Source: a virus. From it: a stretch of 20,625 nucleotides of DNA. Position 1 is the first letter of the stretch, and every line of letters begins with the position of its first letter. The notes under the pieces were generated by a model. The model saw only the letters and a program-made list of their open reading frames with translations. It was not told where the DNA came from and ran no database searches. Location: the IMG/VR virus record IMGVR_UViG_3300027734_000375, positions 1-20,625 of that record; one strand, given 5' to 3'. Positions 5,206 to 18,329 of the stretch are shown here, piece by piece. Both the position numbers and the translations under genes were made by a program.

Positions 5206-6216
5206 ATGAGCGTGTTTATCGACAGGAAGTTCCTGTTATTGGTTTCTCCCAAGTTGCAGAGGTTCGCCAAGAAAAAGGACGACCTCTATAACTTTAGATG
5301 TCCTCTCTGTGGCGACTCACAGAAAAATAAAACAAAAACCCGTGGTTACGTTTACCGCAAAAAGAATGACTATTTTTATATGTGTCATAATTGTGGTGCA
5401 TCGACTACTTTTTACAATTTTCTAAGCCAAGTTGATCCAAACCTAGTTGCTGAGTATTCACTTGAAAGATATAAAAATGGAACAGACAATGGAAACTATC
5501 CGAAGCCCGATTTCGAGGAAATTAAGCAAGAAGCGCCGAAGTTTAAAAAGTCCTTGGAACTTCCATCAATCGACAGTTTACCAGAGGCGCATTATGCTAA
5601 GGTCTATATTCAGAAGAGATGGATTCCACAGGCCTTTCACTCGCAACTATACTATGCGGAAGATTTCGCCGCCTTCATACAAAATCTTGGGATTAAGAAC
5701 ACAAGCCTTAAAGAGAAAGACAGCCGCCTCGTCATACCGTTTTATGATAAAGAAAAGAACCTGGTCGCTGTTCAGGGGAGAGCGCTAGGCGAATCCAAAC
5801 TAAGATACATCACTCTGAAACTCCATGACGATAACCAAAAGGTCTTTGGAATGGATAGGATCAATCAGGAGGAGATGATCTATGTAGTGGAAGGTCCTAT
5901 TGACAGCATGTTCCTAGAGAATGCCGTGGCGACTGCTGATTCTAACTTGGAATCCATCAGTAATATATACGATAAGTCCATGGTTACTTTGGTATTTGAC
6001 AACGAACCAAGAAATAAAGAAATTGTGATGAAGATTGACAAAGCAATCGAAAATCATTATAATGTGGTCATCTGGCCAGAAATGATTGAATCTAAAGACA
6101 TTAATGATATGGTGCTAGATGGGTTCTCACCAGACGAAATCCAAGACATTATAAGTAACAATACCTTTGTGAATTTGCGAGCAAAAGCAGAATTTATTAA
6201 TTGGAAAAAGATTTAA
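5206..6216 (+). CDS. 61: DNA primase, T4 gp61 type
   Basis: The 336-residue length is close to T4 gp61 (342). Residues 32-63 hold the zinc-binding domain, CPLC (32-35) and CHNC (60-63), separated by a basic stretch. The catalytic toprim core is visible as VVEGPIDSMF (E229, D233) with the second acidic motif VFDNEPRN (D265). It makes RNA primers for lagging-strand synthesis and in T4 works with the gp41 helicase, which is not in this window. Only a weak ribosome binding site precedes ATG 5206, and the 27-base gap before it holds no clear promoter. It begins the replication and nucleotide-metabolism block. Confidence 0.92.
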   Translation: MSVFIDRKFLLLVSPKLQRFAKKKDDLYNFRCPLCGDSQKNKTKTRGYVYRKKNDYFYMCHNCGASTTFYNFLSQVDPNLVAEYSLERYKNGTDNGNYPKPDFEEIKQEAPKFKKSLELPSIDSLPEAHYAKVYIQKRWIPQAFHSQLYYAEDFAAFIQNLGIKNTSLKEKDSRLVIPFYDKEKNLVAVQGRALGESKLRYITLKLHDDNQKVFGMDRINQEEMIYVVEGPIDSMFLENAVATADSNLESISNIYDKSMVTLVFDNEPRNKEIVMKIDKAIENHYNVVIWPEMIESKDINDMVLDGFSPDEIQDIISNNTFVNLRAKAEFINWKKI

Positions 6217-6256: not shown

Positions 6257-8050
6257 ATGACTGAATACCTAGGCATTAGAATAGATTTGGAACAAGATAA
6301 ATTATTTGATGAACTTGGGATTAAAAGATTAAAAGAAAGCTACATGAAGGAAGATGAAGAATCTCCACAACATAGATTCGCATTTGTATCAAAATCATTC
6401 GGGAGTAATCAAAAACATGCACAAAGATTATATGAATACAGCAGTAAACATTGGCTCTCTTATTCTACTCCCATTCTCAGTTTTGGTCGTAGTAAGCGTG
6501 GCATGCCTATATCATGTTTCCTTAATTATATTGAAGATACTGCAGAAGGATTAGTTGATAATCTTTCTGAAACTAATTGGCTTTCTATGCTTGGTGGTGG
6601 CGTTGGTATTGGCTTTGGTATTCGTTCAGCAGATGATAAATCTACTGGTGTCATGCCTCACCTCAAAATCTACGATGCTAGTTCTCTTGCATATCGTCAA
6701 GGTCGCACTCGTAGGGGCAGTTATGCTGCTTATCTCGACATCAGCCATCCAGATATCATTGGTTTCTTAGAGATGCGTAAACCGACTGGTGATCCAAACC
6801 AGCGGTGTTTAAATTTACATCACGGTATTAATATTACTGATGAGTTCATGCACCTCATTGAACAATCTATGTTGGATCCCGAATTTGATGATTCTTGGAA
6901 TTTAGTAGACCCAGCATCAAAAGAAATTCGTGAAACTGTATCAGCAAAGATGTTATGGCAAATGATCCTTGAATTGCGTATGCACACAGGTGAACCATAC
7001 ATTCACTATATTGATACAAGTAATAATCAGTTACCACAACACTTAAAAGATTTAGGTTTAAAAGTACATCAATCAAATCTTTGTTCTGAAATTATTTTAC
7101 CCACCAATGAACAGCGAACAGCAGTATGTTGTTTATCAAGTTTAAATTTGGAGACATATGATGAATGGAAAGATAACAAACTATTTCTTAAAGACGTTGC
7201 TGAGATGCTTGATAACGTGCTCAATTACTTCATTGATAATGCTCCTGACAGTATCAGTCGTGCTAGATACTCCGCTCAACGAGAGCGCTCTATTGGCATT
7301 GGTGCTCTCGGGTTTCATGCTTATCTACAGCGTAACGGAATCGCTTTTGAAGGTGTTATGGCCAAAGTTGCCAACAACCGCATTTTCAAATCTATTCGAG
7401 AAGGACTAGATAATGCTAATAAAGAACTTGGATTGGAAAGAGGTGAGGCTCCTGATGCGGTGGGAACTGGCAATCGTTTCAGCCATCTTATGGCTATCGC
7501 ACCAAACGCATCTTCTTCAATTATTATGGGTAACACTAGCCCTAGTATTGAGCCTTACCGTGCTAACGCTTATCGACAAGATACTCTTTCGGGATCATTC
7601 TTAAATAAGAATAGATGGTTGAATGAATTAATTATTAAATTATCACATGATAAGCCAGCCGAATGGTACGATGATGTTTGGTCAACAATTATTGCTAACG
7701 ATGGTTCTGTTCAACATTTAGATTGGATGTCACAGCACGATAAAGATGTATTCAAAACATCCATGGAAATTGACCAAAGATGGGTAATCGAATTGGCTGG
7801 TGATAGACAGCAGTATATCGACCAAGCACAATCATTGAACCTATTCTTTAGACCAGATGCACACATTAAATATATTCACGCCATTCACTTTATGGCATGG
7901 AAAAAAGGACTGAAAACTCTTTACTACTGCCGTTCTGAAAAGATTGGTAAGGCAGACAAGGTGTCTAAGAGGATTGAAAGAAATGTTATTAAAGAGCTAG
8001 ATATGACACAGATTGCTCAAGGTAACGATTGTATTGCTTGTGAAGGTTAA
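6257..8050 (+). CDS. nrdA: Ribonucleoside-diphosphate reductase alpha subunit, class Ia-like, lacking an N-terminal ATP-cone
   Basis: It reduces ribonucleotides to deoxyribonucleotides together with NrdB. Catalytic residues are in place: C87 in PISCFLN and C291 in AVCCLSSLNL are the redox pair, NLCSE (C276) is the thiyl-radical site, and the Tyr pair in LKTLYYCRSE belongs to the radical-transfer path. The C-terminus CIACEG keeps the CxxC that passes electrons from thioredoxin or glutaredoxin. The length is 597 residues against 761 in E. coli, and the N-terminus starts almost directly at the catalytic fold, so the roughly 90-residue ATP-cone that mediates dATP inhibition appears absent. The gene abuts iscU with no spacing, indicating translational coupling in an nrdA-iscU-erpA-nrdB operon. 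Confidence 0.96.
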   Translation: MTEYLGIRIDLEQDKLFDELGIKRLKESYMKEDEESPQHRFAFVSKSFGSNQKHAQRLYEYSSKHWLSYSTPILSFGRSKRGMPISCFLNYIEDTAEGLVDNLSETNWLSMLGGGVGIGFGIRSADDKSTGVMPHLKIYDASSLAYRQGRTRRGSYAAYLDISHPDIIGFLEMRKPTGDPNQRCLNLHHGINITDEFMHLIEQSMLDPEFDDSWNLVDPASKEIRETVSAKMLWQMILELRMHTGEPYIHYIDTSNNQLPQHLKDLGLKVHQSNLCSEIILPTNEQRTAVCCLSSLNLETYDEWKDNKLFLKDVAEMLDNVLNYFIDNAPDSISRARYSAQRERSIGIGALGFHAYLQRNGIAFEGVMAKVANNRIFKSIREGLDNANKELGLERGEAPDAVGTGNRFSHLMAIAPNASSSIIMGNTSPSIEPYRANAYRQDTLSGSFLNKNRWLNELIIKLSHDKPAEWYDDVWSTIIANDGSVQHLDWMSQHDKDVFKTSMEIDQRWVIELAGDRQQYIDQAQSLNLFFRPDAHIKYIHAIHFMAWKKGLKTLYYCRSEKIGKADKVSKRIERNVIKELDMTQIAQGNDCIACEG

Positions 8051-8437
8051 ATGGCATATTCAGATAAAGTATTAGACCATTATGAAAATCCACGAAATGT
8101 AGGTAAAATGGATTCTACTGATGAAAATGTTGGCACGGGTATGGTGGGAGCACCTGCCTGTGGTGATGTAATGAAACTCCAGATAAAGGTCAAAGATGGA
8201 ATTATTACGGATGCTAAATTTAAAACTTACGGTTGCGGATCGGCGATTGCTAGCAGTTCGCTCGTTACTGAGTGGGTTAAAGGTAAAACGCTAGAACAAG
8301 CAGGATCAATTAAGAATTCTCAGATTGCGGAAGAGCTTGCTCTACCACCTGTCAAGATACACTGCTCAATCTTGGCTGAAGATGCAATTAAAGCAGCAAT
8401 AAAAGACTACGAACTTAAATGTTCATGTAAGGTATAA
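8051..8437 (+). CDS. iscU: Fe-S cluster assembly scaffold protein IscU
   Basis: The 128-residue product looks like a complete IscU. The cluster ligands are present: C37 and D39 in PACGDV, C62 in YGCGSAIASS, and H104/C105 in KIHCSILAEDAIK. The LPPVK motif (98-102), recognised by the HscA chaperone in the bacterial Isc system, is intact. The C-terminus ends KCSCKV, two extra cysteines not typical of E. coli IscU. The start follows the nrdA stop directly, with GAAGGT inside the nrdA end as binding site. IscU assembles [2Fe-2S] clusters from IscS-derived sulfur; no iscS, hscA or fdx is in the window, so it would depend on host partners. The similarity to cellular IscU suggests capture from a bacterium. 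Confidence 0.95.
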   Translation: MAYSDKVLDHYENPRNVGKMDSTDENVGTGMVGAPACGDVMKLQIKVKDGIITDAKFKTYGCGSAIASSSLVTEWVKGKTLEQAGSIKNSQIAEELALPPVKIHCSILAEDAIKAAIKDYELKCSCKV

Positions 8438-8438
8438 A

Positions 8439-8765
8439 ATGATTACTGTAACAGATAACGCTTTTAATAAAATTAGAGATTTAATTTTTGAAGAAAAAGA
8501 CAACAGTAATTTGGCATTAAGAATGTCAGTAAGAGGTGGAGGGTGTTCGGGTTTTCAATATGAATTCACCTTTGATGACAAACAAGAAGAAGATGATTTT
8601 GTGATTGAAAAAGATTCCATTAAAGTGTTTGTTGATTCAATGTCGGCACAATACTTAATGGGAGCTACTTTAGATTATAAAGATGTAAAATTTAGTTCAC
8701 AATTTATTATAACCAATCCAGAAGTTAAATCAACCTGTGGTTGTGGTTCATCAGTAGCATTTTAA
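8439..8765 (+). CDS. erpA: A-type Fe-S carrier protein, ErpA-like
   Basis: The 108-residue product has the three A-type cysteines: C36 in GGGCSGFQYEFTFDD and C100/C102 in STCGCGSSVAF. The GGGCSGFQY and CGCGSS contexts fit ErpA better than IscA. DSMSAQYLMGATLDY and FIITNPEVKS match the rest of the fold. A-type carriers receive clusters from IscU and deliver them to target apoproteins. The gene begins one base after iscU, so the scaffold and carrier are co-expressed, and nrdB follows after 15 bases. No truncation or missing ligand is seen. Confidence 0.94.
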   Translation: MITVTDNAFNKIRDLIFEEKDNSNLALRMSVRGGGCSGFQYEFTFDDKQEEDDFVIEKDSIKVFVDSMSAQYLMGATLDYKDVKFSSQFIITNPEVKSTCGCGSSVAF

Positions 8766-8780: not shown

Positions 8781-9767
8781 ATGATCAAAAAAACAGAATC
8801 AAGGATGACCGATGATCGCTCATATTTTAAACCTTTTAATTATCCTTGGGCTTATGATGCATGGCTTAAGCATGAGCAATCTCATTGGTTACATACTGAA
8901 GTACCAATGCTTGAAGATGTTAAAGATTGGAAGAAAAAACTTACAAAAGAAGAAAAACAATTCCTCACTCACATTTTCAGATTCTTCACCCAAGGAGATA
9001 TTGACGTTGCTGGCGGTTATGTTAATAATTATCTTCCTTATTTCCCTCAACCCGAAATACGAATGATGTTATTGGGATTTGCTGCTCGTGAAGCCTTACA
9101 TATTGCTGCTTATTCACATTTGATCGAAACTCTCGGTCTACCAGATACAACATATAATGAATTTATGGCTTATGCCGAAATGAAAGAGAAACATGATTAT
9201 GTCATGAATATCTCTGGCCAAAATACAACCAAAGAAAATACAGCAACACATATTGCCGTATTCTCGGCCTTTACTGAAGGTATGCAATTGTTCTCATCAT
9301 TCATTATGTTGTTGAACTTCCCACGCCACGGTAAGATGAAAGGTATGGGTCAGATTGTTACTTGGTCTATTGTTGATGAAACACAACATACCGAGAATAT
9401 GGTCAAATTGTTCCGTACATACATAGAAGAGAATCGTGAAATTTGGAACGATGAATTAAAAGGTAGATTATATACCATTGCTGAACGCATGGTAGAATTA
9501 GAAGATAAGTTTATTGATTTGGCATTTCAAATGGGTGCCATGGAAGATTTATCATCTGAAGATGTTAAGAAGTATATTCGTTATATTGCCGACCGTAGAT
9601 TGATTTCTTTAGGACTCAAAGGTCAGTTTAAAGTGAAACGTAATCCTCTGCCGTGGGTAGAAGAAATGATTAACGCACCAACACACACAAACTTCTTTGA
9701 GAACAGAGCAACTGATTATGCTAAAGGTTCTTTATCAGGAGATTGGGGTGATGTTTGGGCTCATTAA
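8781..9767 (+). CDS. nrdB: Ribonucleoside-diphosphate reductase beta subunit, class Ia-like
   Basis: The 328-residue ferritin-like subunit generates the radical used by NrdA. The dinuclear metal ligands are present: D73 (QGDIDV), E104 and H107 (REALHIAAY), E166 (FTEGMQ), E200 and H203 (DETQH). Y111 sits at the position of the E. coli radical Tyr122 (E-x2-H-x3-Y), so a diferric-tyrosyl radical is expected; a manganese-dependent variant cannot be excluded from sequence. The last residues (SGDWGDVWAH) form the flexible tail. The start at 8781 has AAAGAGAAAAGA upstream; a second in-frame Met is at residue 9. It is separated from nrdA by iscU and erpA, unlike the usual adjacent nrdAB order. Confidence 0.96.
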   Translation: MIKKTESRMTDDRSYFKPFNYPWAYDAWLKHEQSHWLHTEVPMLEDVKDWKKKLTKEEKQFLTHIFRFFTQGDIDVAGGYVNNYLPYFPQPEIRMMLLGFAAREALHIAAYSHLIETLGLPDTTYNEFMAYAEMKEKHDYVMNISGQNTTKENTATHIAVFSAFTEGMQLFSSFIMLLNFPRHGKMKGMGQIVTWSIVDETQHTENMVKLFRTYIEENREIWNDELKGRLYTIAERMVELEDKFIDLAFQMGAMEDLSSEDVKKYIRYIADRRLISLGLKGQFKVKRNPLPWVEEMINAPTHTNFFENRATDYAKGSLSGDWGDVWAH

Positions 9768-9776
9768 AGGTTGCAT

Positions 9777-9962
9777 ATGACAGACAAAGCACTATCAGGC
9801 GATTGCCTCAGTTGTGAATCACAATACACAGTTCAATTCACAGAAGAATTGGTTTCACAAGAACTACCTGAACATTGTCCATTCTGTGGCGAAATCATCG
9901 AAGAATTATCCGAATCCTATATAGAGGATGAAGATGATTTGGATGATGAGGCATGGGAATAA
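9777..9962 (+). CDS. Small zinc-ribbon protein with acidic tail (61 aa)
   Basis: I place the start at ATG 9777, seven bases after AAAGG, not at the TTG six bases upstream. The product has two CxxC knuckles, CLSC (residues 10-13) and CPFC (34-37), 20 residues apart, forming a probable zinc ribbon, and then a very acidic C-terminus (YIEDEDDLDDEAWE). Similar small zinc-ribbon proteins occur near replication and nucleotide genes of T4-like phages. It could bind nucleic acid or a polymerase; the acidic tail argues for protein contacts. It follows nrdB by 9 bases and overlaps the next gene by 10 bases. Confidence 0.85.
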   Translation: MTDKALSGDCLSCESQYTVQFTEELVSQELPEHCPFCGEIIEELSESYIEDEDDLDDEAWE

Positions 9963-10390
9963 ACTGGACATATAATAATACAGATTTTACGGAAGACTTG
10001 ATTGGTAATAATTACGGGTTCGTGTATCAGATAACCAATCTGACGAATGGTAGAAAATATATTGGGAAGAAATTCTTTTACTCTTCCAAAACCAAACAAG
10101 TCAAAGGTAAAAAGAAACGGTACAAAGCATCAAGTGATTGGCAAACTTACTATGGAAGTAGTGCCGAACTAACTACAGATGTGTTATCATTAGGTCATGA
10201 CAAATTCACCCGTGAAATTTTACATCTTTGCCAATCCAAAGGCGAATGTAGTTATGTTGAAGCAAAAGAACAATTCATCCGTGGCGTTATGGAAACGGAA
10301 GAATACTACAACAGTTGGATTATGGTAAGAGTGAGAAAATCACATCTCAAGGATTACAATGTTAGACTATCTCAAAAAATTAAAGAATGA
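9953..10390 (+). CDS. GIY-YIG nuclease-like protein (145 aa)
   Basis: The N-terminal region carries the two signature strands of the GIY-YIG fold: YGFVYQITN (GFVY, 22-25) and NGRKYIGKKFF (YIG, 36-38). Downstream are YYGSSAEL, a FTREIL helix and YVEAKEQF, in which E103 is a good candidate for the metal-binding glutamate. The protein is short, with no separate DNA-recognition domain such as homing endonucleases of the Seg or I-TevI type carry, so it may be a resident phage nuclease instead of a mobile one. It overlaps the preceding gene by 10 bases and the following one by 32 bases, which also argues against recent insertion. The substrate is unknown. Confidence 0.78.
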   Translation: MGINWTYNNTDFTEDLIGNNYGFVYQITNLTNGRKYIGKKFFYSSKTKQVKGKKKRYKASSDWQTYYGSSAELTTDVLSLGHDKFTREILHLCQSKGECSYVEAKEQFIRGVMETEEYYNSWIMVRVRKSHLKDYNVRLSQKIKE

Positions 10391-18095: not shown

Positions 18096-18329
18096 ATGAA
18101 ACTAGGAAGATTACAGTTATTCTATTACACTAAGATATTACTGAAATATTTACCAGCACCACTATTCCTAGTAGGGTTTATACACAGTATATACTCACCA
18201 CCTTTAATGTGTGGTACTGATTTATCAATGACCCTTATGTGGTTAATCATGGCATTAGCTCATTTAACACCTTATGTAAAATTATGGGAAATATGTGGTT
18301 GTCCAAAAGGATGTAGACACGACCACTAA
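18096..18329 (+). CDS. Small membrane protein with two predicted segments (77 aa)
   Basis: Hydrophobic segments are at about residues 16-33 (LKYLPAPLFLVGFIHSIY) and 42-62 (LSMTLMWLIMALAHLTPYVK). The C-terminus is Cys/His-rich (WEICGCPKGCRHDH, four to five possible metal ligands). The start has no strong binding site (TAACTGT before ATG). It lies between an unknown soluble protein and a lipoprotein, and could be part of an envelope-altering cluster. The metal-binding idea is inference from residue content only. Confidence 0.65.
   Translation: MKLGRLQLFYYTKILLKYLPAPLFLVGFIHSIYSPPLMCGTDLSMTLMWLIMALAHLTPYVKLWEICGCPKGCRHDH

Follow-up and report, generated by a model that had tools for sequence, protein, structure and literature searches.

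Introduction

In Escherichia coli in air, IscA and SufA transfer Fe-S clusters to ErpA, while anaerobically IscU can serve ErpA, and surplus ErpA compensates, via IscU, for the loss of both IscA and SufA (PMC2682760, in the portion of that paper available to us). The same portion (Vinella et al., 2009) raises the possibility that certain scaffolds were modified and can dispense with the customary carriers in cluster delivery. An Fe-S function also lies within the nrdAB operon of E. coli, where the record NC_000913 has yfaE after nrdB. In phages, the available sections of PMC5332604 describe 16 marine genomes, one of them with 12 radical-SAM genes; 14 have a carrier and six have IscU, so at least four must have both. 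An earlier note on the DNA studied here, which held that only single genes of this kind were reported in aquatic viruses, was therefore out of date on that point. Excerpts of two further papers report HMO-2011-type genomes with iscU and erpA (PMC9038755) and two OM43-phage-related genomes with sufA (PMC10580990).

Phage iscU and A-type carrier genes are thus already known. New here are a Cys-x-Cys tail on the phage IscU and the embedding of an iscU-erpA pair within nrdAB; in the open-licence PMC literature we found no description of either.

Results

An intact iscU-erpA pair lies between nrdA and nrdB of a T4-like phage

The stretch of DNA analysed, hereafter the window, is an IMG/VR virus record of 20,625 bases from a T4-like phage. 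Its plus strand carries, in order, genes for a primase, NrdA, IscU, ErpA, NrdB, a small CxxC protein, a SegE-like GIY-YIG endonuclease and a T4-type RNase H (Table 1). Open reading frames, family scores and alignments bear out the order nrdA-iscU-erpA-nrdB proposed in the earlier note, with all ligands intact, all four genes on the plus strand, and 0, 1 and 15 bases separating nrdA from iscU, iscU from erpA and erpA from nrdB. A contig of 105,516 bases (L378, here G056) encodes primase, NrdA, IscU, ErpA, NrdB and SegE proteins 100% identical to those of the window, indicating that it derives from the same phage species.

Table 1. Positions of the nrd operon of the window and of its neighbours.
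Feature	Position	Strand	Evidence
DNA primase, upstream neighbour of the nrd operon	5206..6216	+	PHROG 47 (phrog_47), E 8.1e-82; relatives with the same neighbour
nrdA, class I RNR large subunit, 597 aa, C-terminal CxxC	6257..8050	+	PF02867, PF00317; PRK09102
iscU, predicted Fe-S scaffold, 128 aa, all ligands, LPPVK and C124-S-C126 tail	8051..8437	+	TIGR01999, alignments
Codons for the IscU Cys-x-Cys tail (Cys124-Ser125-Cys126)	8420..8428	+	Sequence, alignment
erpA, A-type carrier of the ErpA kind, 108 aa, C36/C100/C102 intact	8439..8765	+	PRK13623
nrdB, class Ia-like R2, 328 aa, six metal ligands and radical tyrosine	8781..9767	+	PRK09614.1-5, alignment
Small CxxC...CPFC protein, zinc-ribbon-like by eye	9771..9962	+	ORF; adjoins nrdB in many relatives
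SegE-like GIY-YIG endonuclease	9953..10390	+	PF19835, 135.9 bits

LPPVK is the motif bound by HscA. The window IscU scores 221.5 bits against TIGR01999 (cut-off 192.4), and its C37, D39, C62, LPPVK (98-102), H104 and C105 are identical in 90 of 90 aligned phage sequences; the solved structures nearest to it are bacterial IscU. From these sequence features the protein is a true IscU, a predicted Fe-S scaffold with its ligands intact. The downstream product scores 143.8 bits against PRK13623 (cut-off 117) and 83.0 bits against the IscA model TIGR02011, under the cut-off of 150.6, marking it as ErpA rather than IscA. C36 and C100 are kept in 84/84 aligned A-type carriers and C102 in 83/84, and the nearest solved structure is the protein HI1723, whose aligned sequence carries ErpA motifs.

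The flanking genes encode a class I ribonucleotide reductase (RNR), NrdA scoring 759.8 bits against PRK09102 (cut-off 620) and NrdB 436.8 bits against PRK09614.1-5 (cut-off 237). The class Ia assignment of NrdB in the earlier note is upheld by alignment to the E. coli protein, in which the residues matching D84, E115, H118, E204, E238, H241 and the radical tyrosine Y122 are all kept; the nearest solved chain is 9dws_A. Judged by this alignment, NrdB is an R2 protein with class Ia iron ligands and tyrosine. Pfam finds no N-terminal ATP-cone on NrdA, PF02867 and PF00317 being the only matches; the ATP-cone is absent from many class I RNR enzymes.

Comparison with four relatives (L002-L005) gives dN/dS values of 0.02-0.04 for IscU and 0.10-0.16 for ErpA. 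Against three other relatives (L015, L072, L097) the ErpA values are 0.18-0.32, again below 1, confirming that iscU and erpA are under purifying selection; some IscU silent rates are saturated. These low values, and the recurrence of the gene order at 25 of 45 loci described below, show that the arrangement is no accident. Silent divergence is uneven between the genes: against L003 it is 1.02 for IscU, 0.18 for ErpA, 0.47 for NrdA and 0.52 for NrdB, and L004 behaves alike, which indicates that iscU and erpA alleles were swapped while the gene order stayed.

The earlier note proposed a tree of IscU to date its capture. In ours, 64 of 77 phage rows form a group apart from the bacterial rows, with weak support (64%), so a recent capture from a host is not supported. 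One phage row (L071) falls among Comamonadaceae and two (L067, L074) among gammaproteobacterial rows. The nearest 80 bacterial IscU are 80-86% identical to the window protein, and 38 of the 73 distinct ones are from Burkholderiales.

Several further features of the window were recorded. A perfect TTGACA-17-TATAAT promoter-like match lies at 6035-6063, near the end of the primase gene and upstream of nrdA; promoter-like matches in the window total 29, little above the 23.3 (sd 3.8) found in shuffles. An Rfam search of the window gave no match. The small CxxC...CPFC protein has a Pfam YhfH match under the cut-off, in a scan that omitted its first residues, and another small protein (18096-18329), with CGCPKGC near its end, is resembled by eye by a gap ORF of L119.

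Many different genes occupy the nrdA-nrdB gap

A scan with ErpA as query, which reaches close relatives with a short peptide in common, gave 45 loci in all. The earlier note had suggested looking for the order nrdA-iscU-erpA-nrdB elsewhere, and it is found in IMG/VR contigs, at 25 of these loci; nine others read nrdA-erpA-nrdB, one reads nrdA-erpA-trx-nrdB and nine are cut at one side, so that erpA occupies the slot without iscU in 10/45. An nrd gene stands beside erpA at 44 loci; at the remaining one, none was within reach. Such a figure is also what vertical descent would produce, and it therefore speaks for a stable place and not for a function.

The wider set of relatives indicates that the gap takes many other genes. 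Among the best 80 of at least 599 relatives found with NrdB as query, not de-duplicated, 68 loci could be evaluated: nrdA and nrdB are adjacent in 15, IscU and a carrier lie between them in seven, a carrier alone in one, other cargo with a thioredoxin-like gene in 38 and other cargo without one in seven. In 78 distinct nrdAB loci, counting the window and those contributed by the IscU scan, the gap ORFs form 26 clusters, IscU and ErpA being two of these; the small clusters may be spurious. Named by eye, the tenants are thioredoxin-like (37 loci), GATase-like (23), an unknown 212-residue protein (13), ErpA (12), IscU (11), nuclease-like (10) and rarer ones, with micrococcal nuclease-, glycosyltransferase- and desaturase-like proteins among the further examples. 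The GATase-like protein of about 212 residues, second commonest of all, is seen at L003:6691-7350, L049:2608-3255 and 21 other loci.

The placement of the pair also varies among kin. It is found downstream of nrdB, with either gene first, or upstream of the primase gene, and it lies far from nrdB in G012 (iscU 38 kb away) and G021 (34 kb), with the iscU of C48C1 also in the 34-38 kb range; the earlier note had named iscU and erpA located elsewhere, unlinked to nrd, as evidence against functional coupling, and such cases do exist in part. One locus (L133) reads nrdA-iscU-iscA-erpA-trx-nrdB, its IscU belonging to another, weakly supported group. On a tree of NrdB with 91 rows, the state of having IscU and ErpA in the gap changes six times among the 79 rows with a readable gap; with the 12 unreadable rows scored as lacking it, at least five changes fall on starred branches; L088, sister to L005 and L007, has nrdA and nrdB adjacent. 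These observations show the nrdA-nrdB gap to be a general cargo slot in which such genes are gained, lost and exchanged. Because the gap takes so many other genes, position is weak evidence of function, and as a sufficient proof of function it is ruled out.

A serious alternative, which we hold to be somewhat likelier wrong than right, is that iscU and erpA are ordinary auxiliary genes that came to rest in a recombination-prone gap near the SegE-like gene, with a general host Fe-S role and no special tie to NrdB. The diversity of tenants, the counts of gap contents in the NrdB scan, the scattered positions in kin, the repeated changes of gap state and the swapped alleles seen against L003 all suit this account, and the SegE-like endonuclease is a possible driver of gene exchange around nrdAB. 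Against it stand the near-constant company of close ErpA relatives with nrd, though vertical descent alone suffices for that, and the commonest tenant, the thioredoxin-like gene, which is of a kind that serves RNR.

Other genes noted at these loci include a multi-pass membrane protein, Bax-inhibitor-1-like by eye, between iscU and two carriers (L046:6387-7082), and, near nrdB, ORFs that by eye are 2OG-Fe(II)-oxygenase-like and desaturase-like (L025:3885-4388, L011:5297-6001, L147:2568-3281).

A cysteine-pair tail marks phage IscU with ErpA as the only nearby carrier

The window IscU ends in KCSCKV and so has an extra Cys124-Ser-Cys126, a feature that the earlier note did not mention; both cysteines are absent from the aligned solved bacterial IscU. 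Merging five scans gave 170 distinct phage iscU genes with a complete end, of which 54 encode a CxC tail and three a CC tail. Carriers were sought in a stretch reaching 2,000 bases upstream and 2,500 bases downstream of iscU and sorted by motif (GGGCSG and CGCGSS for ErpA, TxGCSG and CGCGES for IscA). Where ErpA is the sole nearby carrier, 52 of 53 phage IscU have a cysteine-pair tail (49 CxC, three CC, and one, L294, with none); where IscA is nearby, with or without ErpA, neither CxC nor CC occurs in any of 89, other cysteines being present in four. Genes with both flanks read and no carrier comprise two with CxC (L026, L036) and eight with none, those with short flanks and no carrier three with CxC and 14 with none, and a single IscU with an unclassed carrier is tailless.

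None of the nearest 80 bacterial IscU has a cysteine-pair tail. A pattern search of 369 genomes of the class of a Polynucleobacter, using a pattern that recovers 54/54 phage CxC tails, matched 21 of them; 20 loci were decoded, eight of them IscU genes, and a CxC tail is in frame in 0/20, while the part read of the 21st does not look like IscU.

In 44 chosen contigs searched along their whole length for carriers, the 20 that bear a tail have one carrier in 18 cases and none in two (G019, G025). Five tailless contigs (G017, G040, G044, G050, G053) have IscA beside iscU and ErpA tens of kilobases off. In two exceptions a tailless IscU is accompanied by ErpA as the only carrier found: G047 (L294, 47 kb) and G055 (L362, 110.5 kb), in the latter 3.2 kb downstream. 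Several tailless contigs, including C48C1 (a complete record), have no carrier found. In every case observed the tail thus occurs without IscA on the same contig or stretch, but IscU without IscA is not always tailed. In one tailed contig (L036, G025; 156,456 bases) we found 13 radical-SAM genes and not one A-type carrier, and its IscU is a possible carrier-free scaffold.

Besides C48C1, five IscU from GenBank "phage" records were examined and set aside. Two records (CAKLQH020000011.1 and MW495066.1) are likely bacterial sequence, because iscU lies within a bacterial-type operon (isc in H2, suf in MaAM05); the others, three unverified gut scaffolds, encode a different, tailless IscU, with a cysteine-desulfurase motif near it in two.

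Tailed genes also lie near nrd more often than tailless ones. With flanks pooled over all scans and both flanks present, an nrd gene lies within about 3 kb of iscU in 9/16 tailed and 4/64 tailless cases (p 2e-5, kinship ignored), a stricter count giving 4/11 and 4/63; such enrichment weighs against the view of the pair as passing cargo.

On a tree made without the tail columns, the tail changes 13 times and the presence of IscA 14 times. The best tree yields 14 independent pairs, only two of them on starred branches, both in the expected direction. These best trees, with their 13-14 changes, suggest several independent origins of the tail, and its differing forms (KCxC at the helix end; NCKC, SECAC or QCC following a spacer) hint that it may have been rebuilt. 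An AU test does not reject a single clade of tailed IscU (p 0.52), and the ErpA of these loci look co-inherited with the tailed IscU; for these two reasons the match between tail and partner may be one linked event.

In the AlphaFold model of the window IscU (mean pLDDT 73), a helix spans residues 100-123; C105 is close to where it begins, and the tail follows beyond it. At a helix rise of 1.5 A per residue, the tail would lie about 28 A from C105 along the predicted helix, probably too far to bind the cluster that the scaffold itself carries. On this model a role of the tail in docking or in handing over the cluster is more probable than one in ligating the nascent cluster.

A bolder reading extends this to the whole pathway: a shortened phage ISC system in which a carrier-like Cys-x-Cys arm replaces IscA and feeds ErpA, and which one lineage wired into nrdAB, where it would preserve the iron-radical cofactor of the RNR through infection. 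We consider this version rather unlikely. A replacement of IscA by the tail is put in doubt by the unrejected single origin and by the two tailless contigs with ErpA alone.

Host partners and likely clients

Profiles were run on 52 contigs, including the window and G056, most of which are fragments. No IscS-family cysteine desulfurase (PF00266) and no Fer2 ferredoxin of the YfaE kind (PF00111) was found in any of them, nor a [2Fe-2S] ferredoxin in the window's operon among the genes scanned beside nrdB. In none of the 52 does iscU lie alongside iscS and fdx, as it would in an ISC operon, and host IscS would be needed given the lack of a phage match. It is through a Fer2 ferredoxin of the YfaE type that Fe-S supply would be linked to NrdB.

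One candidate use of the pair is the maturation of the phage's own Fe-S enzymes, radical-SAM proteins among them, as PMC5332604 proposes, in its available text, for marine phages. This suits the tailless IscU-IscA kit, since radical-SAM-rich phages carry iscU-iscA (matches over cut-off: G017 14, G039 15, G040 10, G053 8), and one tailed contig, G025, has 13 such matches. For the window's phage it is improbable: G056 has no radical-SAM match in 105.5 kb, and its 141 called ORFs hold zinc-like cysteine patterns but no obvious Fe-S ones; there is likewise no radical-SAM match in the 160-kb record G012, which looks closed because part of its ErpA recurs at both ends. Phage contigs that combine iscU-iscA with 8-15 radical-SAM matches over cut-off are L024, L069, L071 and L337, three of which also have a separate, distant erpA.

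Leaving out six contigs without a seen iscU, radical-SAM matches over cut-off occur in 3/19 tail contigs of at least 30 kb (G025 13, G061 1, G063 1) and in 11/14 tailless ones (Fisher p 0.0005, kinship ignored). Four of the six contigs left out (G443-G446, 89-161 kb), which share the window's RNR type, likewise give no match over cut-off, so that the lack may be a trait of the lineage and not a mark of the kit, and the use of radical-SAM content as such a mark is weakened. Given that G056 shows no radical-SAM match and no obvious Fe-S protein of its own, a host Fe-S protein is the most probable client in the window's lineage, and the upkeep of NrdB through a ferredoxin may reasonably be counted among the candidates.

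Discussion

Our preferred reading, which could with equal ease prove right or wrong, is that the window encodes a phage-adapted scaffold-carrier pair that uses host IscS and chaperones, passes clusters directly from IscU to ErpA and is co-made with a class Ia RNR. The phage IscU would dock on host IscS, as its intact scaffold ligands and LPPVK suggest, and would be served by host HscA and HscB. With no IscA gene beside the pair, IscU would hand clusters straight to the phage ErpA, a transfer that the Cys-x-Cys tail may aid, to judge from the match between the tail and ErpA-only loci. The pair could in this way sustain Fe-S supply in the infected cell; its clients would probably be host Fe-S proteins, among them the ferredoxin on which upkeep of the NrdB diferric tyrosyl radical depends, and its siting between nrdA and nrdB would give co-expression with dNTP synthesis. 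Telling against this reading, the available part of PMC11327457 has a host monothiol glutaredoxin also able to feed ErpA.

The proposal in the earlier note that the pair is a cofactor-supply unit survives in part. It draws strength from the intact pair inside an nrdAB operon, the class Ia iron ligands and tyrosine of NrdB, the nrd neighbourhood of erpA and the lack of radical-SAM matches and obvious Fe-S proteins in G056, and loses it to the many other tenants of the gap, the kin with iscU far from nrdB, the loci with erpA but no iscU, and the 52 contigs without Fer2. A direct donation of iron, rather than a cluster, from IscU or ErpA to apo-NrdB would fit the gene order and has a precedent in E. 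coli HypCD, for which the iron of the [NiFe] cofactor is argued to come from the Isc core (PMC10847431, available sections), but we think it quite improbable, as in those sections the HypCD modification persists without ErpA and IscA, whereas erpA stays in the phage slot even without iscU.

As a possible scaffold of the kind raised by Vinella et al., able to work without IscA, the tailed phage IscU is an obvious candidate, and it comes in a small, expressible gene pair. The nrd placement makes it possible to ask directly whether class Ia RNR is limited by Fe-S supply during infection. The survey further separates two phage kits, IscU with IscA (often with radical-SAM) and tailed IscU with ErpA (T4-like, mostly without radical-SAM), and with them two uses so far lumped together as Fe-S auxiliary genes.

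Four known systems are closest. Like the bacterial ISC operon (iscRSUA-hscBA-fdx, e.g. in E. coli), the phage locus encodes an IscU with TIGR01999 and LPPVK features and an ErpA of the E. coli type (PRK13623); it differs in its placement within nrdAB, in the Cys-x-Cys tail of IscU, in having no adjacent IscA, and in the absence of IscS-family and Fer2 matches from the 52 contigs. With the Fe-S auxiliary genes of marine phages (PMC5332604, PMC9038755, PMC10580990) it shares iscU and A-type carriers in tailed phages, some of them T4-like, but the available text of these papers mentions neither nrd embedding nor a cysteine tail, and PMC5332604 ties the genes to radical-SAM enzymes. IscU-like domains fused to the C-termini of class II RNR (PMC9669993) likewise link the IscU fold to RNR; as far as the available part of that paper goes, the enzymes are of class II, the domain is fused and mostly without cysteines, and no phage operon is involved. 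In E. coli nrdAB-yfaE an Fe-S function again accompanies nrdAB, but YfaE is itself a ferredoxin, whereas the phage has a scaffold and a carrier instead.
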